In this document: positions 8,356 to 37,744 of the stretch, piece by piece
How positions within the stretch are numbered: the stretch's first letter is position 1
How the letters are laid out: each line of letters begins with the position of its first letter
Virus record (IMG/VR): IMGVR_UViG_3300045795_000008
Span: 1 to 38,888 of that record
Reading direction: 5' to 3' (one strand)
Source of the DNA: a virus
Length of the DNA stretch: 38,888 nucleotides
Program-made: the position numbers and the translations under genes
The notes under the pieces: model-generated
What the model was told of the DNA's origin: nothing
Databases searched by the model: none
The model's input: the letters and a program-made list of their open reading frames with translations, nothing else

Positions 8356-8379
8356 TTCAAGGTTCTGACCTTGTATGCG

Positions 8380-11546: not shown

Positions 11547-11549
11547 AAA

Positions 11550-12380
11550 TTAGGAGCCGTACTCTGCGCTGCCGTTTTCTTTGAAGACCACTTCGCAGGT
11601 GAGCTTATCTTTCTTCTCGGTCACTTGGATGATGCCCCCCGGCAGAACTGAATCCTTGGATTCGGGGCGACCCGCAGCACCTTCACCCTCGCAGTAATTT
11701 TGAAGTTGAGTCTCATTGCTGGTGTGGAACACGAGCAGGGTTATTCCGCCTGTACGTGCTTCACAGAGATAATGCTCAATGGCTTCCTGTGTGCGGTCGC
11801 CGAAGTCATTGAGTGATTCGCCGCCCGGCAAAGGATCATCGGGGTTGTCGATGTGGTCTTCGAGCACGTCCTGGTTCTCATCCCTGTCCGTACCGGCGAG
11901 GTCACCAACATCCCAAGGTCTCAGCCTGTAGTCGGAGCACGGTTCGATGCCGAGAGCTTCGCCCACAATCTGTGCCGTCTCCATTGCTCGTTCAAGGTCG
12001 GAGGAGTAGATAGCGACGATGCCCTTGTCTTGCAGGAATTCCGCTGCCTCTTTGGCGTCGGCACGCCCCTTGTCATCCAGCGGCACGTCGAGAAACCCCC
12101 TGAATTTGTTTTCTTCGTTTAGTTCCGTGGTTCCATGCCTCAAACAATAGAGAAGAGTTTTGCCGGGGGACTTGTAGAAGTTGCAGCAGTCTTCGTCGCG
12201 TACTGGCTTGGGCTTGCCGTCTTCGCCGGGAACTTCGGGGTCCAATTGAACGACAGGATGATGGCAATGGTCAGCTTTATACCAGACACAATGACCGCAC
12301 TCGCGAGGAGGCTGGTTGGATTCGCCGGACACAAAGCCGCTCATGGATGCGCCGTCTGCTAAAACCTGTAGGGGATTCAT
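11550..12380 (-). CDS. Histidine phosphatase family protein with N-terminal Cys-rich region
   Basis: 276 residues. Residues about 76-230 carry the phosphoglycerate-mutase-like signature: LRHGTTE (Arg81-His82-Gly83, the phosphorylated His), the partner Arg in YSSDLERAMETA (Arg131), PGGES near 186-190, and the second catalytic His in VFHTSN (His219). The usual acidic region is RLRPWDVGDLAG, with Asp rather than the common Glu. The N-terminal 70 residues have Cys28, Cys31, Cys39 and Cys65/66, a possible zinc site. The family removes phosphate from small molecules or phosphoproteins. Its place between portal and scaffold genes is unusual; the target is unknown. The ATG directly follows the portal TAA. 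Confidence 0.8.
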   Translation of the reverse strand: MNPLQVLADGASMSGFVSGESNQPPRECGHCVWYKADHCHHPVVQLDPEVPGEDGKPKPVRDEDCCNFYKSPGKTLLYCLRHGTTELNEENKFRGFLDVPLDDKGRADAKEAAEFLQDKGIVAIYSSDLERAMETAQIVGEALGIEPCSDYRLRPWDVGDLAGTDRDENQDVLEDHIDNPDDPLPGGESLNDFGDRTQEAIEHYLCEARTGGITLLVFHTSNETQLQNYCEGEGAAGRPESKDSVLPGGIIQVTEKKDKLTCEVVFKENGSAEYGS

Positions 12381-14678: not shown

Positions 14679-14681
14679 TGC

Positions 14682-14864
14682 TTACCCCTTTACGCGGTTC
14701 AACCGGGGGTTAGCCTTTTTTGCGCCCTTTGACGCCGCACGACTGGAAGCTGCGAGGATCGCGCCTGCGGCTTCTTTGCCGTAGCCTTCGCCCTGAATCT
14801 TCTTCTGCACCGCTTTGAATCCGGGGTGCGCTTTCTTTGTCGTGGGTGTGGTGAATCCAGCCAT
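14682..14864 (-). CDS. Small basic phage protein
   Basis: 60 residues, Lys/Ala/Gly-rich, with KAHPGFKAVQKKIQGEGYG followed by an Ala-rich helix. This short helical pattern recurs in small proteins near portal genes of many phages; no function is known. Its ATG overlaps the stop of the 53-residue gene by one base (TAATG), and it ends 3 bases before the portal start. Confidence 0.7.
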   Translation of the reverse strand: MAGFTTPTTKKAHPGFKAVQKKIQGEGYGKEAAGAILAASSRAASKGAKKANPRLNRVKG

Positions 14865-15025
14865 TACTTTTCTGCCTTTGGAGTGGTGAACGGTTTAGTC
14901 GCCTTCTTAGGCAGCTTTTTGCCCTTCGACGCCGAGTTCCACTCGTCAACTCCTGAATCACCTAATGCTTTGTGACCTGCCGGAGAATTGCCCCAGCGTC
15001 TTTGTGCGTCACTCTTCCACGGCAT
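14864..15025 (-). CDS. Small basic phage protein, 53 residues
   Basis: ATG at 15025, TAA at 14866-14864. It begins MPWKSDAQRRWGNSPAGHKA, a pattern common in tiny phage proteins (basic N-terminal helix with AQRRW, then a Lys-rich tail). It overlaps the HNH gene at its 5' end by 17 bases and the 60-residue gene by one base. The gene is easily missed because it is short. Confidence 0.7.
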   Translation of the reverse strand: MPWKSDAQRRWGNSPAGHKALGDSGVDEWNSASKGKKLPKKATKPFTTPKAEK

Positions 15026-15404
15026 TAGTTCTGCGCCTCAGTAGTTCTTTCTTCAATTGGTGGTTAGCGCACAATGTCTGATACCCGTTTGGGTAACCTT
15101 CAGTCATCAACGCTCTGTAAAGATGAACTCCACCCCCTTGAGTTCGTCCACGCGATTGCCTGTCAGTTGCGCCGTCGTCATTAACGTGGTCAAGAGTCAA
15201 CATGTCTATGTCAACTACTCCACAATCACGCCAACAGCATTGGAGTGTTTCGTTCTTACCGTAGTGAGTTAGGACGGCAGCCTTTATTTCGAGGAATCGA
15301 GCGGCTACTTGTTCACGGCGTCTGTGATACCTTTCACGTGCGCGTTCCTGCCATCGGCTCTTATTCTTCTGGTAATACCGTTTACAAGCGTCGGCGTTGC
15401 CCAT
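15009..15404 (-). CDS. HNH-type endonuclease
   Basis: 131 residues with a very basic helical N-terminus (RYYQKNKSRWQERARERYH). The nuclease core runs from CCWRDCG (about residue 56) through MLTLDHVNDDG to GYQTLCANHQLKKELLRRR, giving two Cys pairs, the central Asp-His and the final Asn-His of an HNH/His-Me finger. Similar proteins are free-standing homing endonucleases or terminase-associated HNH nucleases. It lies four small genes from the large terminase. The start at 15404 is 2 bases after the preceding TAG; a ribosome-binding site is weak. Confidence 0.75.
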   Translation of the reverse strand: MGNADACKRYYQKNKSRWQERARERYHRRREQVAARFLEIKAAVLTHYGKNETLQCCWRDCGVVDIDMLTLDHVNDDGATDRQSRGRTQGGGVHLYRALMTEGYPNGYQTLCANHQLKKELLRRRTNAVEE

Positions 15405-15406
15405 TG

Positions 15407-15772
15407 CTATCGCGCTATTTCGCCGCTGATCTCGTGGTGCTTGCTGACCTTGCTTGCGCTCGGACCGCCCTTGGTGTGTTCCTGACCATCGGTGCTTTCC
15501 TTGGATAGAGCTTCGCTCAAGTGCTGGATAGCATCCGCATGGTTTGGATGATAGTGCTTGGTGCCGTCGCCGGGGTCCACTACATAGGTTCCGTCGTACT
15601 TAGCTGAGATAGTTCCCGTCTTCTCTACGTCGTCAGACGAACGAGATGAAGCGCCTGCGGCTCCGCCCTTGGTTGATGTCTTGGATGGTTTCTTGTTGTC
15701 CTCATGCCCCTGATCGTCGGCTGAGTCCTTAGCTGCGTTCTTGCTGAAACTTTGGAATGGTGTGTCGAACAT
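15407..15772 (-). CDS. Unknown polar phage protein
   Basis: 121 residues from the ATG at 15772, chosen because AAGAGGGA lies 7 bases upstream; the frame also stays open further upstream into the neighbouring gene, but without such a site. The protein is Ser/Lys/Gly-rich and probably disordered, with a short ordered patch around GTYVVDPGDGTKHYHPNH. No family is recognised. A late-type motif lies 17 bases before the start. Confidence 0.6.
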   Translation of the reverse strand: MFDTPFQSFSKNAAKDSADDQGHEDNKKPSKTSTKGGAAGASSRSSDDVEKTGTISAKYDGTYVVDPGDGTKHYHPNHADAIQHLSEALSKESTDGQEHTKGGPSASKVSKHHEISGEIAR

Positions 15773-15789
15773 AGTTGTTCCCTCTTGAC

Positions 15790-15801
15790 AAAAGATACCG
15801 A
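15790..15801 (-). promoter_or_regulatory. Late-type 12-bp motif TCGGTATCTTTT (copy 5)
   Basis: Exact copy on the - strand, 3 bases after the stop codon of the 108-residue gene and 17 bases before the next ATG. Confidence 0.6.
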
Positions 15802-15804
15802 CGC

Positions 15805-16131
15805 CTAACTCTTCATAATCGCGTCGTTCTTTTGCTTTTCGACCTTCCACGCGGCGTTATGCTCTCGTTCGTAAGTCATTTGCCAATCGAGATAGGTCGG
15901 ACGGCGGAGACGAATCTGTTTTGATGGGGGCTTGGCGTCTTCGGCGGTGTCCTGCTCGATTCTGTATGCGATGGCGTTACCAAGCAGGCGGACGCCGTCC
16001 TTGTACTCCTCGGCGAGGTCGTAATTGATAGCAACTTGGTTTATTTGCCGCCTGAGGTCGGCTTCCAACCGTTCGATGATGGCGCGGTGGGTGAAAAGCG
16101 TGCGAAAAAACTCTCTAATGCGTTCAAACAT
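15805..16131 (-). CDS. Unknown small phage protein
   Basis: 108 residues, ATG at 16131 with GAGGT six bases upstream, 3 bases after the terminase stop. It starts MFERIREFFRTLFTHRAIIER, an amphipathic helix followed by a longer helical segment (LEADLRRQINQVAINYDLAEEYKD). A Tyr/Trp-rich middle (PTYLDWQMTYEREHNAAW) follows. It is probably helical and cytoplasmic. Family and function are not recognised. Confidence 0.65.
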   Translation of the reverse strand: MFERIREFFRTLFTHRAIIERLEADLRRQINQVAINYDLAEEYKDGVRLLGNAIAYRIEQDTAEDAKPPSKQIRLRRPTYLDWQMTYEREHNAAWKVEKQKNDAIMKS

Positions 16132-16134
16132 GAT

Positions 16135-17760
16135 TTACCTCGATGGTCGTCCAAAACTGCGCGGTTTACCGAAGACAATGCCGTTTCCGCGTTTCTTTTC
16201 TGCGCGTAGACGCAAGTCAACGAACAATTTTTCATTACCGTTGGTACACTGGCTCAAAATCTTCTGTCGGCGCATCTCAAATGACGTTTTTCCCGCAGCG
16301 AGTTGCGATTTCAGTGTGTAGCGGCATCCGTCATAGATGTCGTCGTTCTTTGTCTTCGTCTTTTTGACGTCCTCGTCGTTTTTTTCGTCCCTTTGCATTC
16401 GCGGGATGGCTTCGATCAATTCATCGCACTCGGAAGAGATGAGGAGCTTGGAATTCGGGCGACTGGACAGCATTTCGTCCATGAGACGCGCCCCTCCGAC
16501 GCGGTCGTCGTCGGCTACGGTCGGATAGGGAAGCTTGTAATGGCTCAGGGTGTTGCCTATTTCCTCAGCGATGGTGTTCTGGCTCGTGCGCTTAGCCCAG
16601 CAGTCGGGGGACAGGAAGATTTCCGCGATGTTCTCCTGTTGTTCGTTCCCGTCGGAGTCGATGTAGACGCACTCCTTGGCGATAAGCTCGGCAAGCTCTG
16701 CTTCGCCGGTCTTGTTGACTACCATCTCGCGATAAATCAGCGTGGCTTCGTACTCGTCGCCGTTCTCGTCGGGCAAAGTGACCTTGGATGCCCAGAACAC
16801 GGCGCAGTGGTGCTGGTATCCCCAGTCGATTCCTATCCACTTGTCGTGGTGATGCTGACGGCGGGTGAGATTGACGGCGCTGAAGTAGACGGAGAACAGT
16901 TTTTCGTACACGCAAACCGCAGGATCGAAGCGCTCGAAGAACATCCCGGCGACTGTGTCCCAAGAACCGTAAAGGTATCGTGCTTTCCAATCGGATGATG
17001 CCGATTCAAGCGTGCTGATGTACTCTTGGTCATCCTTGTACGCCGGATTGTCGTACACCGACGAGAAGATGTAGGAGTAACGGCTCGGATCGTACTTCGT
17101 GATTCTCTTGTGGGTATATTTCTGGGCGATTTCAAAGTTGCGGACTAGTTTTCCCGATTCGTCCTTCTTGCCGATGAACAACGCCTCGATCCAGTCGGAG
17201 CCGATTCCTCCGGGGTTACTCGCTAGAGCCATGCACGGCACCACCGGTCTGCCGTCCTTGTCTTCCTTGATCGGGCAGCGGTTCTGGAGGGTGAGGTACT
17301 GGAACATCTCATAGGTCCACTCCGTGGCTTCGTCGATTCCGATGAAGACGTATTCGCCGCCGTTGTAGGTGTAGACATCGTGTTCGTGTTGGCACGTGCC
17401 GAACCAGAGCTTGGAGCCGTTGCGGAAGGTGACGACATGGTCGTTGTGGTTCCACGAGCGAGGGCCGCCGTAGTAGGACGATGGAACCTTTTTCTCGAAG
17501 TGATCCATCAACGTTTTCTGTAGGTCGGGATAGGTACGACGCAGCAACAGGACGTTGCAGCCGGGGATGCGTTGACAGAATTCCATCGCTTCCCAGAGAA
17601 GGCAGAGAGATTTGCCACCGCCCTTAGCGCCGCCGTAGAGACGGTACTTCGCTGGGTTCTTGTGGAACTCTATCTGCTTATCGGATGGGTTGTAGGCGAG
17701 TTTGCCGTCTACATAAACCGCGTATGGGTTGTTGGGTATTGCCTTCGCGAATTTCGACAT
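16135..17760 (-). CDS. Terminase large subunit
   Basis: 541 residues. The ATPase domain has Walker A GGAKGGGKS (residues 43-51), Walker B YVFIGIDEA (138-145, Asp143-Glu144) and the coupling motif SNPGG (181-185). The nuclease domain begins at KWIGIDWGYQH (first acidic residue Asp312) and ends with DDIYDGCRY, where the last metal-binding Asp is expected. The protein cuts concatemeric DNA and pumps it into the head through the portal. No clear ribosome-binding site precedes the ATG; it is probably coupled to the gene ending 3 bases upstream. Confidence 0.93.
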   Translation of the reverse strand: MSKFAKAIPNNPYAVYVDGKLAYNPSDKQIEFHKNPAKYRLYGGAKGGGKSLCLLWEAMEFCQRIPGCNVLLLRRTYPDLQKTLMDHFEKKVPSSYYGGPRSWNHNDHVVTFRNGSKLWFGTCQHEHDVYTYNGGEYVFIGIDEATEWTYEMFQYLTLQNRCPIKEDKDGRPVVPCMALASNPGGIGSDWIEALFIGKKDESGKLVRNFEIAQKYTHKRITKYDPSRYSYIFSSVYDNPAYKDDQEYISTLESASSDWKARYLYGSWDTVAGMFFERFDPAVCVYEKLFSVYFSAVNLTRRQHHHDKWIGIDWGYQHHCAVFWASKVTLPDENGDEYEATLIYREMVVNKTGEAELAELIAKECVYIDSDGNEQQENIAEIFLSPDCWAKRTSQNTIAEEIGNTLSHYKLPYPTVADDDRVGGARLMDEMLSSRPNSKLLISSECDELIEAIPRMQRDEKNDEDVKKTKTKNDDIYDGCRYTLKSQLAAGKTSFEMRRQKILSQCTNGNEKLFVDLRLRAEKKRGNGIVFGKPRSFGRPSR

Positions 17761-17763
17761 TAA

Positions 17764-18123
17764 TTACTGCGTGCGATCAACAGCAGGCAAGCCGGATCGG
17801 ACGTGTACGTCTGGTCTCTTCTCTTCCGCGCTGAGTGCAGCACCTCTCTTCGTAGGTGTTTCGTCGAGAATTTCCATCATGAGTCTCATAGCTTGGATAG
17901 CGGTTCCGTTCTGCTTGAGAGACAAACCATGGAGGTTCTTCATCGACTCTTCAAGTCCTGTCTTCGGCGTGTACTTCTCCCGTTCTTCCAAGGTCTTGCC
18001 GATGATGCACACAAGTGCCTTGCGACAGTAGCGTGACCTACCGCGAACTTTAGGCTTGGTGCCGCCTTGTGTAGCGATTGCTTCTTCGATTAGTGCATTG
18101 GTGTCTGGTACTGAGGCAGGCAC
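17764..18123 (-). CDS. Putative terminase small subunit
   Basis: 119 residues. The N-terminal part is basic (PKVRGRSRYCRKALV) and the middle is helical with LEESMKNLHGLSLKQNGTAIQAMRLMMEILDE, which resembles the end of small phage DNA-binding proteins found before large terminases. It ends 3 bases before the large terminase and follows a small membrane gene by 2 bases. The assignment depends mostly on position and size. Confidence 0.5.
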   Translation of the reverse strand: MPASVPDTNALIEEAIATQGGTKPKVRGRSRYCRKALVCIIGKTLEEREKYTPKTGLEESMKNLHGLSLKQNGTAIQAMRLMMEILDETPTKRGAALSAEEKRPDVHVRSGLPAVDRTQ

Positions 18124-18125
18124 AG

Positions 18126-18368
18126 TTACTCCTTCTTCTCAAGCGCGGTTGCCGTAACCTTAGCGTCGGCGAGTACCTTGTCGGCGACCACCAAAGCGGC
18201 AGCGATCAGCTTGGCTGCGTCGTTCTTAGCAGCCAAGGCTTGGATTTTGAATTGCTGGTAGATTGACAAAACCAGTGCGGCGACGCCGGAATAGGCGACT
18301 ATTGCTTCATAGTTCATGCTGCCAAAAGATACCGATGTTACTGCGACGATTGCGTTTGATATGTCCAT
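18126..18368 (-). CDS. Small membrane protein, holin-like
   Basis: 80 residues if the ATG at 18368 is used (weak GCGGGA site), or 63 from the ATG at 18317. A hydrophobic segment covers YEAIVAYSGVAALVLSIY (about residues 20-37 of the long form), followed by an Ala/Lys-rich helix. A late-type motif lies inside the long form's first 17 codons and 6 bases before the shorter start, so the shorter form may be made from its own transcript. It could be a holin or a virion membrane-contact protein; no stronger evidence is visible. Confidence 0.5.
   Translation of the reverse strand: MDISNAIVAVTSVSFGSMNYEAIVAYSGVAALVLSIYQQFKIQALAAKNDAAKLIAAALVVADKVLADAKVTATALEKKE
18324..18335 (-). promoter_or_regulatory. 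Late-type 12-bp motif TCGGTATCTTTT (copy 6)
   Basis: Exact copy on the - strand within the first codons of the small membrane gene, 6 bases before its second ATG (18317). It would drive that gene and the two terminase genes. Confidence 0.5.
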
Positions 18369-18403
18369 GGTTAAGTCCCGCTAGAGGAAGTTACCGAATG
18401 GGT

Positions 18404-19075
18404 TTACAGCACCACCGTGGCTTCGACCCCGAGCGTGTATGTGCTGATCTGGTCACCCGCCTGTATGCCCACGGCCTGAATCTCGACGGTGTAACCCACA
18501 CCCACGACAATGGTCGGCATCGCCGCCGTGAAGTAAACGTCATCAACGGTCGTCGCCGTAAGCCCTTGACCGAAGGTGTAAACCCCGATAGCCCCAGCCG
18601 CTTGCGTATGACCGGAGAAAGTCTGGCTCATGATGTTTCCAGCCGCGTCCTTGATCAGCACCCCGAGATAACGGTTCCCAACCGTGGCCGACGTGGTGAG
18701 TCCCACATAAATTGATCGCAGCGTCCATTGCGTGTTGAGCGGAACCGTGACGCTGACGTTCGCGCCCGGTGCGGGATTGGGAACCACCACCGACTGGAAA
18801 GCCGGTTGCTGCGCGGGATTCTGAAGCTCGTACTGCGGCGGGTCGTAGGACACGACGAGTTGTATCTGACCCGTGAAAGGCGTGAAGGCGATCACGGCGG
18901 TGTACGGCTGGATCGTGATCCCCGTGACGTTTGTGGTCGCAACCCCCGTCAGCGGCACGGATTGGGACAGGATGGTCGCCGTCGTGGGTGTCCATGAAAG
19001 GGGAACGTTGTACGACGTGCTCACGCCGTCGCCTTGCAACACGTAGCTTGTTGTTGATACGAGTACTACTGCCAT
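18404..19075 (-). CDS. Fibre/decoration protein, related to the next two upstream genes
   Basis: 223 residues, preceded by GAGGAATAATCT. Its start (VSTTSYVLQGDGVSTSYNVPL) is clearly related to that of the 265-residue neighbour (LTPVSYLLQGDGASTSFSFNL). The body is beta-rich, with a jelly-roll-like C-terminal half (NRYLGVLIKDAAGN). No enzyme motif is seen. It is probably a virion surface protein, a fibre tip or a head decoration. The similar leader bases before both genes suggest duplication. Confidence 0.65.
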   Translation of the reverse strand: MAVVLVSTTSYVLQGDGVSTSYNVPLSWTPTTATILSQSVPLTGVATTNVTGITIQPYTAVIAFTPFTGQIQLVVSYDPPQYELQNPAQQPAFQSVVVPNPAPGANVSVTVPLNTQWTLRSIYVGLTTSATVGNRYLGVLIKDAAGNIMSQTFSGHTQAAGAIGVYTFGQGLTATTVDDVYFTAAMPTIVVGVGYTVEIQAVGIQAGDQISTYTLGVEATVVL

Positions 19076-19085
19076 AGATTATTCC

Positions 19086-19883
19086 TCACTGCTCCGTCCA
19101 CTCCACCCAGAACTCGCAAACGTTTCCGTTGATGGCACCGACGATGCTCACGACGAAAAAGTCGTTGACGCCGTTGAGCACGAAGGCTCTCGCCCCGGGA
19201 GCGGTTCCGAATTCGCTGACGAACGGTTGCAGAACCGCCGGAGATTCGCAGAACGTGACCGCCTCGCACCGGATCGGACCCTGCGCGAATGTCCCCGCCG
19301 TGGGGGGAGCGGTGAAATATTTCGCTACCGCCGTCGCCGGCGCATCGACAACGGGATTGGCCACGCCGGGGCTTATGGCCACGGCGGTGCCTCCCGTGGC
19401 GGTGGTGCTGTAGCGGGACATCACCACATCAACCGCGCCCGTGGCGTACCCGCCGTGACCGGATAAGTTGAACCTGACGATCTTGACGATTTTCGTCGCC
19501 GATCCCTGCAGCTGGAACACGATCCCCGGCACAGGCGTGAACGTTGGCGTGACGACATTCGCGCTGACCGTGCCGGACGCCGCGTAATAAGTGGCCGAGA
19601 TGCCCGTCACCAAGTTCACCGACCCGACGATAAGCGTGGACAGCGCCGGGATGAAGTTCACGATCAGTTCGAACTCGTAGGCGAACGCGGCAAGGAATGT
19701 GACTTTCATGTTCTGGCCATTCAGCGTGATGGACGTGATGTTCGCCGACACGTCAACCCCGTTGTAGAGCGCGGAAACGAGGGATACCGAAATCGGCTCG
19801 AAGCCGAGATTGAAGGAGAACGACGTGCTTGCGCCGTCGCCCTGGAGCAGATACGAAACCGGTGTCAACAGTGAGATTGCCAT
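19086..19883 (-). CDS. Fibre/decoration protein, paralogue with VEWTEQ tail
   Basis: 265 residues, preceded by AGGGAATAATTT. The N-terminal half is shared with the 223-residue gene, and the C-terminal half ends CEFWVEWTEQ, matching the LSGFVEWTEE end of the 845-residue protein. It therefore looks like a mosaic of its two neighbours. Predicted beta-sandwich; no catalytic motif. It probably shares an attachment point or a receptor-binding fold with the longer protein. Confidence 0.65.
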   Translation of the reverse strand: MAISLLTPVSYLLQGDGASTSFSFNLGFEPISVSLVSALYNGVDVSANITSITLNGQNMKVTFLAAFAYEFELIVNFIPALSTLIVGSVNLVTGISATYYAASGTVSANVVTPTFTPVPGIVFQLQGSATKIVKIVRFNLSGHGGYATGAVDVVMSRYSTTATGGTAVAISPGVANPVVDAPATAVAKYFTAPPTAGTFAQGPIRCEAVTFCESPAVLQPFVSEFGTAPGARAFVLNGVNDFFVVSIVGAINGNVCEFWVEWTEQ

Positions 19884-19893
19884 AAATTATTCC

Positions 19894-22431
19894 CTATTCC
19901 TCGGTCCATTCCACGAAGCCGGACAACGTGCATCCCGCCGAGAAGAAAAATGCCATGTTGTACCCGGAGCGCAGGAGGTACGGCTGTCTCCCGACGCCGT
20001 CGCCCAGGACCTCCTCGTAAACCGCGTTTGCCGAACTGAGAATGGTGGTGGTGGCCATGGTGACGAACGGTATGACATTGAGCTGGATTTGCGTGCCGCC
20101 GCCGCCGGTGGCGAGAGCGCCGTACAGGTAGATCGCGCTCGTGGGCGCGGGACCGCTGGTGTCCATGCTGAACGTGTTGTAAAGATACGAAGTTCCTCCC
20201 GTCCATGCGGCGCTTTGCGATGCCACGGTCATCGCCACGTAAGCCTGCGTCGCTGTTGTCAGCTGGAACCGCAGTTTCGTGACCTTGGTCAGTTTGCTCG
20301 TGCTGCCATAGAAAACGACCCCCGGGAATGTCGCCGACGCAAGCTGCGCATTGCTGAACGGGACCCTGAATGTGCTCTTGCGGCCTTCCGTGCTCACGAG
20401 CAACGAGCCACGGACGTCTCCCTGGATGCCCACGGACTGGCCGGTCGTCAAGGTTGGCGCGGTCGTGTTGAAAGTGTCGCTGACCGCCAACGCGTTGGCC
20501 GGGGCCGTGGCCGCTGTTATCGCGCTGTCGAGACTCGCGCCCGCGTGCCCGACGATGCCGACTTCCTGCACGCCTGCCGCCGCCGTGACCACAGCCGCAC
20601 CAGCCACGGCCTGCAGATCGTGGTTGATCGCGCCGTGGATGTCGGTGACGGCGAGGACTTGATCTCCGCTCGTGTAAGTCAGGTTGGCGTAGGCGGACTC
20701 CGCGATGAATCCAAGCACGCCCAAATTGTCGGCGATTGGCGCGGCGCTGTTGTTGGTCAGGTTCCCGGCGACCGTCACCGTGTTGGTGACAGTCGTGGAC
20801 GCAAGGGTGATCGCCCCCGAAATGACCCACGGACTTGTTGATTGCGTGACGGCGATAGTGGTGTTGGAAAATGCGACGGTGCCGGATACGACCCACGGCG
20901 ATGTCGATTGAGTGACTGCGACCGTGGCTGGGAAATTCGAGACCGCCACTGTTCCGCTTACGGGCTGCGTGGCCTGCCAGAAGGTTCCTGTGACAGGGAC
21001 GGTGTTGGTCACATCGACATTGACGGTGGATGCGATGCTGACTGGCTGCGTAGCCTGCCAAAATGTCCCCGTGACCGCCACGCTTCCGCTGACGGCTACC
21101 GTGCCGCTGACTACCCATGGCGACGTTCCCTGCAACGCGGTCACTGTTCCGCTGACGGCTTGCGTCGCCGGGAAGTTGTTGACCGCGACAGTCCACGCGC
21201 CGCTCTGCGCGGCCTGCACCGCGAACGTGCCGGTGTTCGTGACAGCGATTGTCGTGTTGGAAAATGCGACAGTGCCCGTGACGGTCACGGCACCGGAGAC
21301 GACCCATGGCGATGTGGATTGCGTGACAGCGACTGTTCCTGTGATCGTCGTGCTGGTGGGGAAATTCGAGACCGCGACTGTTCCGCCGACCGCGAATGTG
21401 CCGGTCCCCGCGTTGGCCGTCACGGTGCCGCCCACGACCCAAGGCGATGTTCCCTGCAAGGCCGTGACAGTGCCGGACACGGGCTGCGTCCCCGGGTTGG
21501 CGACGATGGCGGCGGCGATTGACGCGGCGGACACCACGTTCGTCTGGAAGGCGTTAACGGCGGGGACAAGCGCCGCCGCCGGTGTCGAGCCGTAGGCCAC
21601 CACGGCGGTCAAGCCGAGGGCCGCGCCCGCGACTTCCGTGAGGTTGACCGCGCCCAACGGAAGGGCCGAGAGCGAAACGGCCACGGTGTTCGTGACGTAG
21701 GCGTTGACGCCCTGGACATTGATCGAGCCGGGGCTTGTTCCGTAGGCGGACGGCGAACCCAGTCCCACCGAGTTGAGTTCCGTCAGGTTGACCGCACCCA
21801 GCGGTAATGACGCCAATGTCACGGGCTGGGCGATGGAGTTGAAGCTTACGATTTGCGAAGCGGGGAAGTTGCTGACCTGAATAGAGGTGTTGGAGAATGC
21901 GACAGTCCCAGAAACCGTGACCGCACCCGCGACGTTGAAAGTTCCTGTGCCTGCGTTGGCTGTGACGGTGCCGGTGATAGCAGGCAGAGAAGAGACCGCG
22001 ACGGTTCCTGTCACCGCGATGCTGGAATTCAAAATGTTCGCGTTGACGCCTATTACATTTCCTGTTAGCGGTGCGATTCCCCATGCCGTGGGTGATCCCA
22101 GACTGATGGAATTCCATTCCGTGATGTTTGCCGCGACGCCACCACCAGCGCTCGTGACAGGCAACGGAGTGCTTGGGGTTACCTGCGTCCATACGCCGCC
22201 GTTGCAGTAGCCAAGACCGATGGCGTAAGCGGGACATGATCCCCCGATCAAGCCATCAGCAGCATCCTGCGTATCTTGAACAGCACCACCGGTGCTGAAT
22301 CCGTAGACAACAAGACCGGGCGTGCCGGGAGGCGGCGTTGCGTCCACCACGTAGGCGGACAACTGCTCCGGATCAATCGGGTGACAAATCGTGATGACTT
22401 GTTTTGACTGGACGTAGTTTGGATCAGCCAT
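19894..22431 (-). CDS. Long beta-repeat fibre protein
   Basis: 845 residues. Residues about 100-570 consist of degenerate short beta-repeats with themes TSPWVVSGTV, SNFPATxAVSGTV and GTFWQATQPVS, often joined by VTGTV and VTNT. The N-terminal 100 residues (KQVITICHPIDPEQLSAYVV) are likely the attachment region, and residues about 660-845 form a distinct C-terminal domain ending FVEWTEE. Repeats of this type occur in virion proteins of many environmental phages and are thought to form extended fibres. DNA repeats within it could promote recombination. The start overlaps the preceding gene by 8 bases with AAGGTGA as ribosome-binding site. Confidence 0.75.
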   Translation of the reverse strand: MADPNYVQSKQVITICHPIDPEQLSAYVVDATPPPGTPGLVVYGFSTGGAVQDTQDAADGLIGGSCPAYAIGLGYCNGGVWTQVTPSTPLPVTSAGGGVAANITEWNSISLGSPTAWGIAPLTGNVIGVNANILNSSIAVTGTVAVSSLPAITGTVTANAGTGTFNVAGAVTVSGTVAFSNTSIQVSNFPASQIVSFNSIAQPVTLASLPLGAVNLTELNSVGLGSPSAYGTSPGSINVQGVNAYVTNTVAVSLSALPLGAVNLTEVAGAALGLTAVVAYGSTPAAALVPAVNAFQTNVVSAASIAAAIVANPGTQPVSGTVTALQGTSPWVVGGTVTANAGTGTFAVGGTVAVSNFPTSTTITGTVAVTQSTSPWVVSGAVTVTGTVAFSNTTIAVTNTGTFAVQAAQSGAWTVAVNNFPATQAVSGTVTALQGTSPWVVSGTVAVSGSVAVTGTFWQATQPVSIASTVNVDVTNTVPVTGTFWQATQPVSGTVAVSNFPATVAVTQSTSPWVVSGTVAFSNTTIAVTQSTSPWVISGAITLASTTVTNTVTVAGNLTNNSAAPIADNLGVLGFIAESAYANLTYTSGDQVLAVTDIHGAINHDLQAVAGAAVVTAAAGVQEVGIVGHAGASLDSAITAATAPANALAVSDTFNTTAPTLTTGQSVGIQGDVRGSLLVSTEGRKSTFRVPFSNAQLASATFPGVVFYGSTSKLTKVTKLRFQLTTATQAYVAMTVASQSAAWTGGTSYLYNTFSMDTSGPAPTSAIYLYGALATGGGGTQIQLNVIPFVTMATTTILSSANAVYEEVLGDGVGRQPYLLRSGYNMAFFFSAGCTLSGFVEWTEE

Positions 22432-24759: not shown

Positions 24760-25359
24760 CTAATAGGCGAGAAGAATGTCGTAGACGTAAACAATAACCG
24801 CTTTTGAGTCGTCGTCCAGCGTCACTTCATCCCCGGTGTTGTGGGCAATGAGCACCCATTCATCGACCTTCAGCGCTGCCAAAGCCGCAGTGGCGAATTC
24901 GTTCGAGGGGCGTTCACTTAGACTTAGAATCTGGCATTTCGACGGCTTCACGTTCGCGATGCCCTCGATGTAGAGTCCGCCTTCGCTATAGGCTGCTTCC
25001 TCTTCGCGACGCAGCAACACCCTGTCGCCGATGGGGCGGGGCATCTTCTCTAACTTTTTCTTCGGCTTCGGCTCTCCCGCAGCGGTGAATTGTCGTTTGT
25101 CAACCACGGACACGGGAGCTTCTTCGGCGGCTACGGTGCGGTTGAACTTAACCAAGGACGAGAGCTTCTTGACAGCCGTCTCGGCATCCTTTTCGGTCGC
25201 CAGGTCGGCGTACTCCTCACCCGTCACAAGGTACTTGGCGCGGAATTCCCCTTCGGGCATCTGGTGGAAGTCGTCTATCGTGGTCGTGTCCACGTATTCG
25301 CCGGGGACGCGGAATGTAACCGGTCCCCTGTACCCACTTGCTAGTTTGTCACCCTGCAT
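24760..25359 (-). CDS. GroES-like co-chaperonin with N-terminal extension
   Basis: 199 residues. Residues about 106-199 fit the GroES/Cpn10 fold: MPRPIGDRVLLRREEEAAYS, the mobile-loop motif GGLYIEG (128-133), then KVDEWVLIAHNTGDEVTLDD and a final VYVYDILLAY like the family's closing strand. Phage co-chaperonins such as T4 gp31 replace host GroES so that capsid protein can fold in GroEL. The first 105 residues are an extra acidic/helical domain I do not recognise. AAGGAG precedes the ATG, which overlaps the preceding gene by 11 bases. Confidence 0.8.
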   Translation of the reverse strand: MQGDKLASGYRGPVTFRVPGEYVDTTTIDDFHQMPEGEFRAKYLVTGEEYADLATEKDAETAVKKLSSLVKFNRTVAAEEAPVSVVDKRQFTAAGEPKPKKKLEKMPRPIGDRVLLRREEEAAYSEGGLYIEGIANVKPSKCQILSLSERPSNEFATAALAALKVDEWVLIAHNTGDEVTLDDDSKAVIVYVYDILLAY

Positions 25360-30624: not shown

Positions 30625-30727
30625 GCCTGCTAATACTGACGGCAAGTGATGCTGAAGGAATGTGGTGACGATGCCCATGCCAGTGTTAATACTGGATTCC
30701 AGCCCGTCGTCGGCGTACCATTTAGCG
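30625..30727. promoter_or_regulatory. Divergent control region of the HNH and TIR-like genes
   Basis: It contains CTAATACTG (30630-30638, reading AGTATTAG on the - strand) five bases from the HNH start, and the near-palindrome CCAGTGTTAATACTGG (30680-30695) before the TIR-like gene. The 12-base centre AGTGTTAATACT is the exact reverse complement of the site overlapping the RHH start. AAGGA lies at 30655-30659. Confidence 0.5.
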
Positions 30728-31117
30728 ATGCCAAATCCCAGAGCTTTCATCGCTTTTGACTACGACCATGATGAGTTTCTGCGTGTCGCGTTGGTCGGGC
30801 AGTCGAAGCACCCGGACACTGACTTCGCGATAGCCGACTGGTCCGTGAAGGTGCCGTTCGTTGGTGATTGGAAAGACAAAGTCCGCGACCGCATCCGGCG
30901 CGTTGACCAAGTGATTGTCATCTGCGGGGAAAACACGCACAAAGCAACGGGCGTAGCTGCTGAACTTGAGATTGCCCGTGCGGAAAAGAAGCCGTACTTC
31001 TTGCTGAAGGGATACCCGGACAAAACCTGTTACAAACCAACCACGGCATTGACGACGGACGAGATATACACGTGGTCTTGGGAGAATCTGAAGAACTTGG
31101 TTCGAGGGGCACGCTGA
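30728..31117 (+). CDS. TIR-like protein (DUF1863/ThsB-type)
   Basis: 129 residues from the ATG at 30728, the start expected for the family; earlier starts at 30665 or 30671 have a better AAGGA site and would add about 20 residues. The sequence has the family marks: RAFIAFDYDHDEFL at the N-terminus, GQSKHPDTDF, ADWSVKVPF, QVIVICGENTHKATGVAAEL with Glu79 in the place of the catalytic Glu, KKPYFLLKGY and a late Trp-rich YTWSWENLKNL. ThsB proteins sense phage and make a cyclic ADP-ribose-type signal in Thoeris defence. It forms an operon with a membrane protein and an unknown gene. Confidence 0.85.
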   Translation: MPNPRAFIAFDYDHDEFLRVALVGQSKHPDTDFAIADWSVKVPFVGDWKDKVRDRIRRVDQVIVICGENTHKATGVAAELEIARAEKKPYFLLKGYPDKTCYKPTTALTTDEIYTWSWENLKNLVRGAR

Positions 31118-31690
31118 TTGTCACACGGCAAGCTGCAAAACCAGACGCCCGGGGAATACGGCGACAAGTACCAAGACCATCTGCTTGAGCAGTACAAGCT
31201 GTACGTCGAGACATCGCAACACGTCACCGAAAAGCGGCAAAACTCCAACAATTATCTGCTGACTTTGAATTCCAGTTTGGTGACGCTGTATGTTGTTTTC
31301 TTATCCACATTCGGGCATTACTGGTGGAACATACTGATCCCCGCAACCGGGCTCATCGTCTGCTTCATCTGGTATTCGCTGGTGGACTCCTACAAGGAGT
31401 TGAACAGAGCCAAATTCGTGGTTATCTACGAGCTTGAGAAACAGCTTCCCGTGGCGTTGTTCCACCGAGAGTGGGATGTCTGTGGGCTTAACCAGCAGGG
31501 CAATAAAGACAAGCCCGTCGAGGAGATGTACGTCCCGCTGACCAAGTTGGAACGGTGGATTCCGGTCGCGTTCGCTGTGCTCTTCATCGGGATGGGAGCT
31601 TTCACTCTGTTGGCTCCGATGGACAAAAAGAACCCGCCACCCGCACAACAACAGCACGAGATTAAAGCAGCGCCGAAGACTGAACCATGA
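31118..31690 (+). CDS. Three-helix membrane protein, candidate effector partner of the TIR-like protein
   Basis: 190 residues with a TTG start directly after the TIR-like stop; GAGGGG lies 8 bases upstream. Hydrophobic segments lie at about 46-66, 69-90 and 147-167, with a conserved-looking soluble loop between the second and third (DSYKELNRAKFVVIYELEKQ, ALFHREWDVCG). The N-terminal DHLLEQYKLYVETSQ helix and this layout recall small effector membrane proteins next to TIR or CD-NTase genes (SLATT-like, or the family called RipA-type octameric membrane protein; named from memory). If the TIR-like protein makes a signal, this protein may respond by opening a pore. That is inference. Confidence 0.7.
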   Translation: MSHGKLQNQTPGEYGDKYQDHLLEQYKLYVETSQHVTEKRQNSNNYLLTLNSSLVTLYVVFLSTFGHYWWNILIPATGLIVCFIWYSLVDSYKELNRAKFVVIYELEKQLPVALFHREWDVCGLNQQGNKDKPVEEMYVPLTKLERWIPVAFAVLFIGMGAFTLLAPMDKKNPPPAQQQHEIKAAPKTEP

Positions 31691-32070
31691 CGCTCAAGCC
31701 TGAAACCGCCTTGCGCAAGAGACTGGAAGCCCTGGGACGCCATCGGGCATTGCTTGACGCTCTCAGTGCATTCGTCGAGGGGCATCCCAAACTCGTCGGT
31801 GACTATTCAATCCATCAACTGCACGGCAAATTAGGATTGAAATTCTCCGACTACGCTCTGATCGTGCCGAACTGGAAGAACGGAAAAGCGGTGCTGACGC
31901 TCGTGAAATCAGGCGATGATTGGGTTAACGGCATGGACTCGGAAGCCTATTACCGCATGGAGCGCACGGTTGCCGAAGACGTATCCGGCATGTCCGACAG
32001 GCAATTGGAAAAGTTGTTGGACAAAACGTATCGGGAAGCCAACCCAGACGCGGATGAAGATGAAGAGTGA
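31687..32070 (+). CDS. Unknown third gene of the TIR-like operon
   Basis: 127 residues, starting inside the membrane gene's stop (ATGA overlap). The middle is mixed alpha/beta (IHQLHGKLGLKFSDYALIV, GKAVLTLVKSGDDWVNG) and the C-terminus is acidic (NPDADEDEE). The overlap argues that it is part of the same system, possibly a regulator or an immunity-type partner, but nothing in the sequence shows this. No family recognised. Confidence 0.6.
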   Translation: MTLKPETALRKRLEALGRHRALLDALSAFVEGHPKLVGDYSIHQLHGKLGLKFSDYALIVPNWKNGKAVLTLVKSGDDWVNGMDSEAYYRMERTVAEDVSGMSDRQLEKLLDKTYREANPDADEDEE

Positions 32071-32848: not shown

Positions 32849-33045
32849 AGTTTCCCCACGCCCTGGTCGATGGCACCGAGCCAGAGGGATCGAAGCTCGC
32901 CGGTGGACAGCTTGAGCAGGATCGTGGCCATTGACTTGCGGCGCTTGAGCCCGCGCCTGGGCGCGACGGCAAGGACGATGTCCCATGCGTACATCACCCT
33001 CTTGGCGGCTTCGGCCCGGCGTTGGGCCTTGGACGGTTTTCTCAT
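32845..33045 (-). CDS. 66-residue basic protein
   Basis: Rich in Arg/Lys at the N-terminus (MRKPSKAQRRAEAAKRVMY), then a hydrophobic helix and SMATILLKLSTGELRSLWLG. Its ATG shares one base with the preceding replication gene's stop (TGATG). Possibly DNA-binding; not recognised. Confidence 0.55.
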   Translation of the reverse strand: MRKPSKAQRRAEAAKRVMYAWDIVLAVAPRRGLKRRKSMATILLKLSTGELRSLWLGAIDQGVGKL

Positions 33046-34178
33046 CAGCTTTCCTCGACTTCGAATCCCTGGCCGCCGGGGACGGGCTCAAGGTTGATCA
33101 CGGCCATGCACTCGTAGAGCAACTCTACGAATTCCGTCTTGGTGACGCGGCGGCGGTTTTCGACGCAAAAGCGGACGGTTGCGGCAAAGTGCGCCTCATC
33201 CGCGCCGGTTTCTTTCCACTCGGATGGCTTAATCGTCCAGTCCCCGGACTTGCAGCGTTCCGCGAATGTCGCCCGGTGCTCGACGCCGTCGTCGTTTTCG
33301 AGCACGACCTTGAATTTCGGCGGTATCTCGCGGGGATACTCTCTCTTGGCCGTTGCCACGGCGTGGTAGGCTTTGGCCAGATGGTAGTTGAGAGTCCAGT
33401 ACGCGACGAAGACGTCGAAGCCTATCATCCCCCAGAGCATCTTGGCCGACTTCTCGCGCCTGTTGAGCGTGATGTCCAGGACAGGCTCTACGACATGGTG
33501 TCCCTCTCTGGCTATGAGGCTGGTGGCTAGGCCGTACTCTTCGCTGGTGAACGGCTTGCCGGTGCGCTTGAGCCAGAGGTCCGACAGCGTCTTGGCTTCC
33601 GGATGCCAGGAAACAGAAACAGAAACACCCATCGTAGGTGCGGGTGTCCTAGAATTCGACGATATAGGTGTAGAGCGAAGCGAGACACCGCTTCCCTCAC
33701 TCTCTCTTTCAATCCCGTCGTTTACGACGGAAGATTCAGGGGGGACAGATTCATAGGACAGATTCGCATCGCATTTTGCGACGCTAGGATGTTGCAAAAT
33801 GCGACGCTTGACTTTTCGCATTTTGCTACGTTGCAATTTGTTGTACTCTGTGACAATTTGCAACGCTTCAAGGTCGATGTCATAGGCGACCGTGAAGGTA
33901 TTTCCCCCGGTGAAGTGCTTGGGACCGCCGCCGCATTCTTCACGTCCGCAAGTGTGCGACTTGGCTTCTTTCAGGATCCCCGTCTCAACCAACTCTTCCA
34001 TGTTGCGATAGACCGTGGCGCGGTTGACACTCGCGCGTTTCGCGATGGTCTCCTTGGACGACCAGATGTTGGTGCCGTCGTTATGCGCGAACGACGCCAA
34101 CGCCAGAAGCACACGCTTGTGCTTCCCCGGCAAATCCATCTCTTGAATTTTGGTTTGTAGCTTGCTACTCATAGTCAC
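33045..34178 (-). CDS. Winged-helix replication-initiator-like protein
   Basis: 377 residues with a GTG at 34178 or an ATG at 34172; neither has a strong ribosome-binding site. Residues about 20-80 form a winged helix: KHKRVLLALASFAHNDGTNI, WSSKETIAKRASVNRATVYRNMEEL and VETGILKEAK, as in phage replication-initiator N-termini. A Ser/Pro-rich linker (about 150-190) leads to a helical C-terminal domain (TLSDLWLKRTGKPF, AKMLWGMIGFDVFVAYWTLN). Helicase or primase motifs are absent. It begins a chain of five overlapping genes. It is preceded by a structured leader. Confidence 0.65.
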   Translation of the reverse strand: MTMSSKLQTKIQEMDLPGKHKRVLLALASFAHNDGTNIWSSKETIAKRASVNRATVYRNMEELVETGILKEAKSHTCGREECGGGPKHFTGGNTFTVAYDIDLEALQIVTEYNKLQRSKMRKVKRRILQHPSVAKCDANLSYESVPPESSVVNDGIERESEGSGVSLRSTPISSNSRTPAPTMGVSVSVSWHPEAKTLSDLWLKRTGKPFTSEEYGLATSLIAREGHHVVEPVLDITLNRREKSAKMLWGMIGFDVFVAYWTLNYHLAKAYHAVATAKREYPREIPPKFKVVLENDDGVEHRATFAERCKSGDWTIKPSEWKETGADEAHFAATVRFCVENRRRVTKTEFVELLYECMAVINLEPVPGGQGFEVEES

Positions 34179-34185
34179 CGTGCTT

Positions 34186-34260
34186 TCGTCACTGTCAGTC
34201 GCTGTCGAAGCGGTCGATGCGTATAGGGATAAAGTGACAGTGACGACAACTTTATCCCTA
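34186..34260 (-). promoter_or_regulatory. Overlapping inverted repeats in the replication-gene leader
   Basis: Pair A: TCGTCACTGTCA (34186-34197) with TGACAGTGACGA (34235-34246), 12 bp. Pair B: TAGGGATAAAGT (34224-34235) with ACTTTATCCCTA (34249-34260), 12 bp. On the - strand transcript the loop of hairpin B holds one arm of pair A, whose partner sits 8 bases before the start codon. The RNA could form a pseudoknot over the start or choose between forms. A DNA-level role, such as replication-protein binding, is equally possible. Confidence 0.5.
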
Positions 34261-34298
34261 CGCTGAATCCCTCGCGGAATCCCGACAATGTCTAATAC

Positions 34299-34520
34299 TC
34301 ACTCTTTAGGAACGGCATGGTTGTTGGCGTCGTTCAGGACCTCTTCGATGCGGTTGAGCAGGTTGGTGGCGTTATCGCCTGTCTCTTTCAATTCGCCAAG
34401 GTGAGCCGAGGTCCCAACCGCGTAAAGGAACGGCAGCGTCTCGCGCAGCAAGTCCAGCAGGTCTTTCTCGGTGATGGTGTATGTCTTGACTATCTGCATA
34501 GGTTTATTGACTCCCGTCAT
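34299..34520 (-). CDS. Small helical early protein
   Basis: 73 residues: TITEKDLLDLLRETLPFLYA then TNLLNRIEEVLNDANNH, two helices joined by a short loop. The ATG at 34520 follows GACGGG. The stop is directly followed by an AGTATTAG motif (34292-34300). No function recognised. Confidence 0.55.
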   Translation of the reverse strand: MTGVNKPMQIVKTYTITEKDLLDLLRETLPFLYAVGTSAHLGELKETGDNATNLLNRIEEVLNDANNHAVPKE

Positions 34521-34565
34521 TAGTTTATCGCGGTTAAGCCATCCGTGTAAACCGACGTTAACTTA

Positions 34566-34592
34566 CAATGTGTTGCAACTTGCAACACATTG
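34566..34592. repeat. Perfect 13-bp inverted repeat
   Basis: CAATGTGTTGCAA and TTGCAACACATTG with one central base, directly after the stop codon of the winged-helix gene at 34596. There is no T run, so a simple terminator is unlikely; an operator or replication site fits better. Confidence 0.6.
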
Positions 34593-34595
34593 GAC

Positions 34596-35114
34596 TCATA
34601 GCTCCTCGAAATCGTCCAGGACCGGGGACGCGGTCACGGACTGCACGGGCTTCTTGCAGGCATGGGTCTCGCCGCAGACAGGGCACGCCGTCGGCTTCTT
34701 GTTCTTGTGCCGCTCTTCGAGGATGGTCAAATTGATTTCCCGCTGCGCGGCCCGCTCGTCCACCGGCACGAATTGCAGGCAATCTTGGAGCGCGTTGCCC
34801 CTGGACTTGCGCCGGTTGCCGGTGAGCCTGACGCAACCCTTCCTGAAGAGTCCCGACCTGCGGGACGAGACGGAGCTGGTCTGGTCTGATGAGTCCAGGT
34901 CGCCGAGTTCCTCGTTCGAGAGGTCGGCGTGGGGCGCGGAAGCGAGCACGTGCTTGATCACCTGTTGCTCGTAGATCGCTAGGCACGCCTTCTCGCGTTC
35001 GGTGAGGTTCACCTTCCGCGCCGCGTCCTGGGTGGTCCTGGGGTCTGTGGATCGGGCGGGAATGGGCTCCGGCTCGGGATCGGCATCTGCTATCTGGTGC
35101 TTGGCTGTCGTCAT
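34596..35114 (-). CDS. Winged-helix early regulatory protein
   Basis: 172 residues with a good AAGGA site. An acidic/Pro N-terminus (PEPEPIPARSTDPR) is followed by LTEREKACLAIYEQQVIKHV and a winged-helix recognition region SSVSSRRSGLFRKGCVRLTG with NRRKSRGNALQDC. The C-terminus has CPVCGETHACKK, a Cys-x2-Cys...Cys zinc-like end. This order resembles phage early DNA-binding proteins that test host or phage operators. It is the first gene of the leftward early block, next to the attachment site. Confidence 0.6.
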   Translation of the reverse strand: MTTAKHQIADADPEPEPIPARSTDPRTTQDAARKVNLTEREKACLAIYEQQVIKHVLASAPHADLSNEELGDLDSSDQTSSVSSRRSGLFRKGCVRLTGNRRKSRGNALQDCLQFVPVDERAAQREINLTILEERHKNKKPTACPVCGETHACKKPVQSVTASPVLDDFEEL

Positions 35115-35136
35115 AGTTTTGAATCCTTCAAAAGTA

Positions 35137-35220
35137 GGGCGGAGCCTTGAAGGACGCTCCGCCCCGAATCTCGCTGGGAAAGCGAGTTGTCAAGAGCAAC
35201 CTCGACCTACCCTAATACTG
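35137..35220 (-). promoter_or_regulatory. Leader of the first early gene with two hairpins
   Basis: AGTATTAG (on the - strand, within 35212-35220) lies about 98 bases before the ATG. Between them are CTCGCT/AGCGAG and the 9-bp stem GGGCGGAGC/GCTCCGCCC (35137-35145 with 35156-35164), followed on the - strand by TACTTTT. The second hairpin looks like a weak terminator and could act as an attenuator. Confidence 0.45.
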
Positions 35221-35331
35221 TCCCTTTTCGCCTCCAGCGAGGAGTTACCAAGGGTTAGCTCCAAACGGTGTTGAGCTTAGCTTGCAGGCTTTCCGATTCG
35301 GGCGGTCTGAGGTGCGCACACCAAACGCGAA

Positions 35332-35366
35332 AAGGCGCTGCCCCCCAGCTATGGGAACAGCGCCTT
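35332..35366 (-). terminator. Strong stem-loop at the prophage right end, possible terminator
   Basis: AAGGCGCTG (35332-35340) pairs with CAGCGCCTT (35358-35366), 9 bp; on the - strand it is followed by TTCG after the TT of the stem. It could block host transcripts from entering the prophage. A smaller AGACG-AGG-CGTCT hairpin lies next to it. Palindromes GGGTTAACCC (35413-35422) and GTCCAC-AACCA-GTGGAC (35474-35490) follow. The 35.22-35.54 kb gap holds no gene. Confidence 0.4.
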
Positions 35367-35538
35367 AAGACGAGGCGTCTCGAAACTCTACCGCCGATCT
35401 AAGTGTACCACAGGGTTAACCCCAGTTAACTTAGCACTTGTGGCTGCGTAGCGAACGGCCTATAATGGTTTGAGTCCACAACCAGTGGACATGAGGGTAT
35501 TGACCATGCTGACAACGTCAACACCCGAGAGCCCGAGC

Positions 35539-35572
35539 AAGGTCGGTGGTTCAAATCCACCCCCCGCAACCA
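35539..35572 (+). other. Attachment site: 3' part of initiator tRNA-Met (attR-like)
   Basis: The sequence gives a variable loop AAGGTC, a T arm GGTGG-TTCAAAT-CCACC, the 3' acceptor CCCCGCA, A73 and CCA. A72-A73-CCA and CCCCGCA are the hallmarks of bacterial initiator tRNA-Met, where position 1-72 is unpaired. No matching 5' acceptor (TGCGGGG/CGCGGGG) lies upstream, so only the 3' end is present. This is what remains on one side after integration into a tRNA. The complete tRNA should lie at the left end. Confidence 0.8.
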
Positions 35573-35791
35573 AAAAATCTTTCCCCTTCAACAATTTCCG
35601 CGAACCCCGCAACCATCCGAATTGATAAAGATCCGGGAATGCCTGCTTGTCGCGCAAGAGGTCGACATGTCTGAGTCCCGTCTCTGAGATCCGATTAAAC
35701 GCGAGGATCGGCGCAGCATTTCAAGCGAACACACGGTTTCCCCTGTCACAAACCAACCCATAGGGTTGAATGGGCACGCATTCTTCAAGGT

Positions 35792-36056
35792 TCAGGCGCT
35801 TTGCTGGGCGACCATCGGCTCGGAAGCCGATGCGTCTGACATGCAGGGCAGGGATGTCCCTGATAGGCGGTTGACCCCGAAAAATCGGCTGTATTCGCGG
35901 CTGATTGCGTTGGACTTTCGTAGCCGACCTCGAAAGCGGAGCTGCCCGCATCGAGGCCACTGTTGAGCATCAGACTCCGCGCGGCCTGCAGTCGAAGTTG
36001 TTTCCGGATGCCCTCGCTGACGCGCCCTTGGCGAGCGCGAGCATCCGGGTTCTGCT
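35792..36056 (-). pseudogene. Broken AraC-family regulator, C-terminal remnant
   Basis: The - strand reads KQLRLQAARSLMLNSGLDAG, then SAFEVGYESPTQ, the second helix-turn-helix of AraC-type regulators. Near 35905 the frame breaks; one base is missing, and the next frame resumes with SREYSRFFGVNRLSG, the expected continuation. The N-terminal part is absent or unrecognisable. The C-terminal frame ends at 35792. The gene is decayed or was cut by the prophage or by deletion. The 220 bases between it and the attachment site hold nothing recognisable. Confidence 0.75.
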
Positions 36057-37599: not shown

Positions 37600-37744
37600 T
37601 CGAAACACAGTGCACCTCACATAAATCCCAGCCCCGCGGCCCGAGACCAACCGTCCCACAAATAAGTTCTTACGAAATTCGGGCGGTGCGACCTGCACTT
37701 TCACCAAGCGGCACCGCCCGAAATCCATTCAACGTCTGGAGCGT

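Follow-up and report, generated by a model that had tools for sequence, protein, structure and literature searches.

Two inverted repeats lie interlocked in the short spacer before a replication-initiator-like gene, raising the question of whether they act in RNA, as a control element in the leader of that gene, or in DNA, as sites for a protein or as an origin of replication. The DNA analysed, hereafter the window, is the whole 38,888-base virus record IMGVR_UViG_3300045795_000008, a prophage-like region in which the terminase and other structural-looking genes lie on the minus strand and the rightmost part reads like bacterial DNA. The gene in question (rep; Table 1) is assigned its replication role from its HTH_36 domain, the names of the PHROG families that match it and the repeats that it carries. 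The HTH_36 match in the N-terminus of its product scored 45 bits against a cut-off of 25, in keeping with a winged helix of the lambda O type, and phrog_391, ‘replication initiation O-like’, matched residues 3-73 with an E value of 2.6e-6. Likeness to phage replication-initiation proteins reaches little beyond the helix-turn-helix domain, and a search of the PDB with the protein gave no match. The dyads sit in the 120-bp spacer (34179-34298) before rep, and we infer that rep and the 73-aa frame upstream of it are co-transcribed.

The ATG at 34172 is a likelier start for rep than the GTG at 34178. A distant homologue begins MSIKL where the rep protein has MSSKL, position 1 aligns with residue 3 in 2 of the 19 listed PHROG families (phrog_391 and phrog_4617), and the Shine-Dalgarno sequence GGTGA, read from 34179 to 34175, suits the ATG. 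Two bases separate the end of GGTGA from that ATG, a spacing that is ordinary only when counted from the full AAGGAGGTGA alignment. A reading of this locus made earlier from its letters (the sequence-only reading) had put the nearest repeat arm 8 bases before the start codon; this suits the GTG, with 7 bases between, but not the likelier ATG, with 13.

The same reading had proposed two overlapping 12-bp inverted repeats at 34186-34260, and these were borne out exactly: pairs A and B are each complementary at 12 of 12 positions, every stem pair is Watson-Crick with no G-U, and base 34235 is common to both. The arms of pair A are separated by 37 nt and those of pair B by 13 nt, and an arm of A lies inside the loop of hairpin B, as had been claimed, occupying 11 of the 13 loop bases. 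By chance, a 12-base arm would fall within that loop from 4 of the 109 possible positions in the spacer. Among 200,000 dinucleotide shuffles of the spacer, 48 gave at least one exact pair of at least 12 bases and none gave two. Shuffles of the whole window (n = 300), in which pairs were counted when their arms stood at most 60 nt apart, held 0.12 such pairs on average, and in none did the centres of two pairs come within 30 bp of each other; the unshuffled window holds four, namely A, B, a palindrome at 34566-34592 and a pair at 37678-37722. The two dyads are a non-random, real element, and probably a regulatory one exerting local control of rep. Adjoining dyad B are three ATCCC units (34249-34283) spaced 12-13 bp apart, two of which fold on the RNA into a short GCGA-loop hairpin (z -1.84; equal stability in 9 of 200 shuffles).

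Table 1. Features in and around the rep leader, in window coordinates.
Feature	Position	Strand	Remarks
Replication-initiator-like gene (rep)	33045-34178	-	Open frame from GTG 34178; likely start ATG 34172; N-terminal winged helix-turn-helix (HTH_36)
TTGCAAAATGCGAC-like repeat cluster	33766-33868		Mid rep gene; candidate lambda-O-type origin
Likely Shine-Dalgarno, GGTGA	34175-34179	-	Longest match to the anti-Shine-Dalgarno complement in 34160-34230
Pair A downstream arm, RNA UGACAGUGACGA	34186-34197	-	Separated from the likely Shine-Dalgarno by 6 nt
Third near-copy of the A motif, GACAGCGAC	34198-34206	-	10 bp from the copy in the downstream arm
Hairpin B 3′ arm, RNA ACUUUAUCCCUA	34224-34235	-	Exact pairing and fold
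Pair A upstream arm, RNA UCGUCACUGUCA	34235-34246	-	11 of 12 bases within the 13-nt loop of hairpin B
Hairpin B 5′ arm, RNA UAGGGAUAAAGU	34249-34260	-	Exact pairing and fold
Promoter-like site TTGTCG-18-TATACG	through B	-	8/12
Promoter-like site CTGACA-19-TATGAG	from downstream A arm	-	9/12
73-aa open frame	34299-34520	-	Upstream of rep; phrog_28063, E 0.004, function unknown
Perfect palindrome CAATGTGTTGCAA / TTGCAACACATTG	34566-34592		13-bp arms, 1-bp centre, TTGCAA core; candidate operator

The explanation that we favour, tentatively and with somewhat less than even confidence, is an RNA-level switch in the leader of the initiator gene. The leader would be transcribed from upstream of B, and the interlocked dyads would act within the rep mRNA as a control element. 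Hairpin B would fold once transcribed and show one A arm in its loop, and that arm could then engage the downstream A arm, immediately ahead of the ribosome-binding site. Such pairing might take either of two routes, forming a pseudoknot of about 10 pairs on top of B, or replacing an opened B by an alternative hairpin A, in which case the 5′ strand of B would, in the folding model, be freed to pair with the AUG. In this scheme the start would be open in B and closed in A, and interconversion of the two in the cell would set the level of Rep. The trigger might be Rep itself, some other protein or an antisense RNA. An extended form of this scheme strikes us as a long shot. In it, the temperate phage of some uncultured bacterium would carry a leader RNA with three states (B, A, and the pseudoknot that combines them), the B loop would have two targets in tandem, and B-loop RNA, released or in trans, could act on the rep leader of an incoming phage and so confer RNA-based replication immunity.

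Predicted folding gave a switch of this kind partial support. Hairpins A and B are each unusually stable and have similar energies, which argues in its favour: no shuffle out of 200 was as stable as hairpin B (34218-34266; z -6.22) or as hairpin A alone (z -4.67), and the isolated energies were -20.3 kcal/mol for B and -22.0 kcal/mol for A. The folded B stem continues beyond a 2-nt bulge with GCG/CGC. In the ensemble computed for the transcript 34300-34120, nine of the 12 B pairs had probability 1.0 and the remaining three 0.31, 0.72 and 0.53, while hairpin A had a probability of 0.001. Against the switch, the whole leader showed no clear excess stability (z -1.63; 13 of 200 shuffles equally stable), and the Shine-Dalgarno and start region was predicted to be without unusual structure (z -0.46 for 34165-34207 and -0.18 for 34150-34215). 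A known RNA family was ruled out for the leader, as the two Rfam matches in 34000-34700 (E 3.6 and 5.6) fell far under the gathering score; across the whole window, the single match at that score was the tRNA at 3259-3330. An intrinsic terminator was likewise ruled out, with zero terminator-like sites found in the spacer.

The sequence-only reading had further proposed that a loop-leader pseudoknot forms over the start region as a translational switch. The geometry for a pseudoknot is present and sterically possible, which favours action in RNA, but not for the full 12 pairs: a stem of 11-12 bp was ruled out because its 2-nt loop is too short to bridge it, and a 10-bp stem with a 3-nt loop, with 20.7 Å to span, was allowed, so that about 10 of the 12 A pairs fit. 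Reach and energy were calculated from background values for the pseudoknot penalty, the A-RNA coordinates and the length per nucleotide (6.2 Å). Energy settles nothing here, since the predicted pseudoknot share swings with the penalty, from 0.996 at 5 kcal/mol through 0.92 at 7 and 0.14 at 9.6 to 0.003 at 12; modelled against the nested folds, the pseudoknot is energetically borderline. As for the start region, the pseudoknot moved predicted Shine-Dalgarno openness from 0.41 in the free 34300-34120 transcript to 0.50, and across six transcript lengths the shift was -0.22 to +0.09 while the AUG mostly stayed open, so that the model did not bear out the pseudoknot itself as the translational switch.

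In the model, hairpin A closed the AUG better than the pseudoknot did. For 34300-34120, predicted AUG openness collapsed from 0.85 to 0.03 in the A state, where the 5′ strand of B, once released, pairs with the AUG, and transcripts starting at 34300 or 34262 ended at 0.02-0.03. When the arms and coding part were fixed and the other leader bases shuffled, an equally large fall occurred in 4 of 300 shuffles, which favours the switch, and an A-state openness of 0.03 or less in 24 of 300; this test was picked after the fold had been seen, and its outcome depends on the 5′ end of the transcript. Two features of the A state count against the switch: the closing of the AUG was weaker in longer transcripts (0.78 to 0.34 from a start at 34420, and 0.73 to 0.52 from 34521), and the Shine-Dalgarno of 34300-34120 opened, from 0.41 to 0.63, while the AUG closed. 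The A state lay 4.3 kcal/mol above the free ensemble, a cost that was as low or lower in 225 of 300 arm-keeping shuffles, so the leader surroundings do not favour A. For short leaders the modelling suggests a switch between B, with the AUG open, and A, with the AUG closed; for long leaders the suggestion is weaker, and the effect on the Shine-Dalgarno makes the picture mixed.

Control of this general kind is familiar from plasmids. In ColIb-P9 and the IncL/M plasmids, the loop of a hairpin base-pairs with RNA lying upstream of the rep start, and a further hairpin, which masks the rep ribosome-binding site, gives way when the pseudoknot forms; in the IncL/M repA leader, translation of the initiator reportedly depends on that pseudoknot. 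Here, too, a 5′ hairpin carries in its loop the complement of a stretch that precedes the rep ribosome-binding site; unlike in those plasmids, no significant hairpin is predicted over the Shine-Dalgarno, pair A has 12 bp, and the initiator is a phage protein with an HTH_36 domain. As the passages on ColIb-P9 (IncI-alpha) repZ describe it, a pseudoknot lying upstream of the ribosome-binding site is required for initiator translation and is the structure that an antisense RNA blocks (PMC8383071). The switch proposed here would work like the rep-leader switch of those passages, which speaks for it. Unlike in ColIb-P9, an antisense promoter was not found, there being no sigma-70-like site on the plus strand of 34150-34620 at 8/12 or better, and this counts against the proposed switch. 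The element is akin to ColIb-P9 repZ in geometry, but the computation gave no Shine-Dalgarno hairpin and there was no sign of an antisense RNA. It is not filed as a member of that type.

Among phages, a literature search for leader pseudoknots before a replication gene, in phages or acidobacteria, brought up gene 32 of T4 and RB69. The sections of the source that treat it describe a leader pseudoknot 5′ of the Shine-Dalgarno of this phage replication gene, serving as a nucleation site for the single-strand-binding protein and followed by UUAAA/UAAA repeats (PMC535899). To the extent of those sections, the two cases share a phage replication gene with leader pseudoknot geometry, predicted here, 5′ of the Shine-Dalgarno; unlike the gene 32 product, the protein here has a helix-turn-helix domain. 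For P4 immunity, the account excerpted in PMC4825925 has the CI RNA, which is made from the untranslated leader, pair with two complementary sequences, seqA and seqC, on both sides of CI, and control replication genes, the mechanism being premature transcription termination. By that account the B loop resembles CI RNA in having two complementary sequences, one of them imperfect, and differs in that both of its targets lie downstream and that the spacer has zero intrinsic-terminator-like sites.

Relatives that could reveal covariation in the arms were sought through the whole Rep protein and its parts, the neighbouring frames, the dyad patterns and plain DNA, and no homologous leader was found in the collections searched. 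The RNA switch therefore draws no support from covariation, although this does not tell against the pairing. The whole Rep protein had no homologue in viral contigs or genome contigs, nor did its N-terminal and C-terminal parts or the 73-aa and 172-aa frames in viral contigs; these protein scans pick up only sequences that share one of six 8-residue patterns exactly, and relatives of moderate divergence may escape them. Searched as exact gapped patterns, dyad B occurred in none of the viral contigs and the core of dyad A in four, which we treated as chance or unrelated given their different spacing and surroundings and the lack of the dyad B pattern in all four. Two of these, L013 and L014, are alike and rich in GTGACA/TGTCAC repeats. 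Three contigs (L003-L005) carry terminases 83-84% identical over residues 10-240, and a twin contig (L012) is 100% identical to another part of the window, 2150-22149; none of them had a Rep match, and against 33000-36000 they gave nothing beyond an 18-base match. In genome contigs the terminase query found two matches at 32% identity. Compared with phages and plasmids, the leader DNA gave just short matches (E 0.4 or worse). The distant homologues of Rep, in a Sphingopyxis phage and in Paraburkholderia and Paracoccus plasmids, match in the helix-turn-helix part only; when repeats of 10 or more were considered, the Paraburkholderia plasmid homologue had one 13-bp repeat before its start, and the Sphingopyxis phage homologue had none in the 221 bases up to its start, which lie inside the preceding gene.

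How the dyads act is best judged by setting the RNA switch beside action in DNA. In favour of the switch are both chance results for the geometry, namely the two exact dyads in one spacer and the A arm within the B loop, but the Watson-Crick-only stems would suit DNA sites equally well. It is possible, and only somewhat less likely than the switch, that the dyads act instead as DNA and are bound by a protein, for instance a phage repressor or an activator, with the inverted arms as half-sites controlling a promoter within or just before the spacer. Their perfect symmetry without G-U is consistent with this, as is the clustering within 57 bp here of three of the four window copies of GTCRCTGTC, two of them in tandem at 10 bp, or one helical turn. 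Four copies in the whole window compare with 0.96 expected (four or more in 2 of 100 shuffles), and when the non-arm bases were shuffled 50,000 times, three or more A-motif copies arose in 1702 cases; the third near-copy could also base-pair with the B loop, leaving one mismatch. When up to 3 mismatches are allowed, the A arm has 62 matches in the whole window against 36.3 expected, a count reached by 0 of 100 shuffles, but every match beyond the leader has at least 2 mismatches (exactly 2 in four cases), and the tail-gene stretch at 20-22 kb accounts for many of those with 3. B-arm matches are at chance level (16 against 13.7), the window inverted repeats include zero further dyads of either motif, the centre-to-centre distance of 49 bp between the A half-sites is large for a single dimer, and the fit of the A arm into the B loop is left unexplained. 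Promoter-like sites on the minus strand do cross the dyads, as an operator would lead one to expect, but their number is that of base-shuffled sequence (7 against 7.8 expected), and a stricter scan gave one site, 34551-34522 (9/12; 0.8 expected), upstream of the 73-aa frame; the chance frequency of such sites in and near the spacer fits read-through from upstream.

That the dyads form a replication origin, as iterons or as melting or primosome hairpins bound by the initiator, is unlikely. They do adjoin an initiator-like gene, and the leader folds unusually well as a single DNA strand (z -3.17; 3 of 200 shuffles equally stable), but a better candidate lies in mid-gene, and the leader dyads lack its motif. 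Rep iterons were ruled out for the dyads on the ground that the mid-gene repeats carry another motif. These repeats are mixed direct and inverted and partly degenerate. Their strict 16-base motif, TGTTGCAAAATGCGAC, has 8 matches with up to 3 mismatches in the window against 0.36 expected: three in mid-gene (the query itself and two with 3 mismatches), two that are the palindrome at 34566-34592, one per strand, and three in tail-gene DNA at 20.8-21.9 kb. A looser form is not enriched (71 against 66.3 in the window), and TTGCAA alone, the core common to the palindrome and the rep-gene repeats, occurs there 15 times. The palindrome stands upstream of both the 73-aa frame and the promoter-like site at 34551-34522. 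In the parts of PMC3985674 that concern lambda, iterons lie in the middle of the O gene; as far as that text goes, the likeness of an initiator-like protein with repeats in mid-gene is to lambda O, from which the locus differs in its mixture of direct and inverted repeats, and the likeness concerns the origin, not the leader. The leader dyads are probably not the origin, and of the earlier suggestion that they might be a protein-binding origin, the origin part is weakened by origin-like repeats of another motif in the gene and at 34566-34592, while a protein-binding DNA operator is still a possible reading. A last view, that the dyads are relics or chance folding with no present function, has in its favour that conservation was not demonstrated, and is very improbable: both dyads are exact at 12 of 12, a pairing of dyads absent from all of the spacer shuffles, and perfect arms would not be expected to outlast drift.

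Were the dyads to act at the RNA level, an environmental prophage-like initiator gene would join a form of control best known from plasmids, in a compact layout where one hairpin carries an arm of another as its loop, and the locus could show how a phage of this sort holds down its initiator in the prophage state. As a DNA operator, it would be ordinary.

Several features elsewhere in the window deserve mention. Three TGTTGGAAAATGCGAC-like matches on the plus strand of repetitive tail-gene DNA (20862-21903) mimic the rep repeats and are probably tail-gene repeats. On the plus strand at 30662-32070, a run of frames comprising a ThsB_TIR-like protein (PF08937, E 2.1e-7), a frame of the 8xMP octameric-membrane-protein family (E 5.2e-37) and a 127-aa frame with no match is a Thoeris-like defence candidate, with no PADLOC match. 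The sequence at 35520-35575 reads like the 3′ end of a tRNA gene, where ARAGORN calls no tRNA, and is a possible prophage attachment site; bacterial-looking genes follow it, with an AraC-family-like stretch at about 35.85-36.0 kb and a HAF-repeat protein. The window also carries a phage-borne GroES-like frame on the minus strand at 24760-25359 (Cpn10, E 5.8e-10) and, among the late genes at 3259-3333, a tRNA-Ser (GCT) encoded on the plus strand, against the direction of the structural-looking frames.
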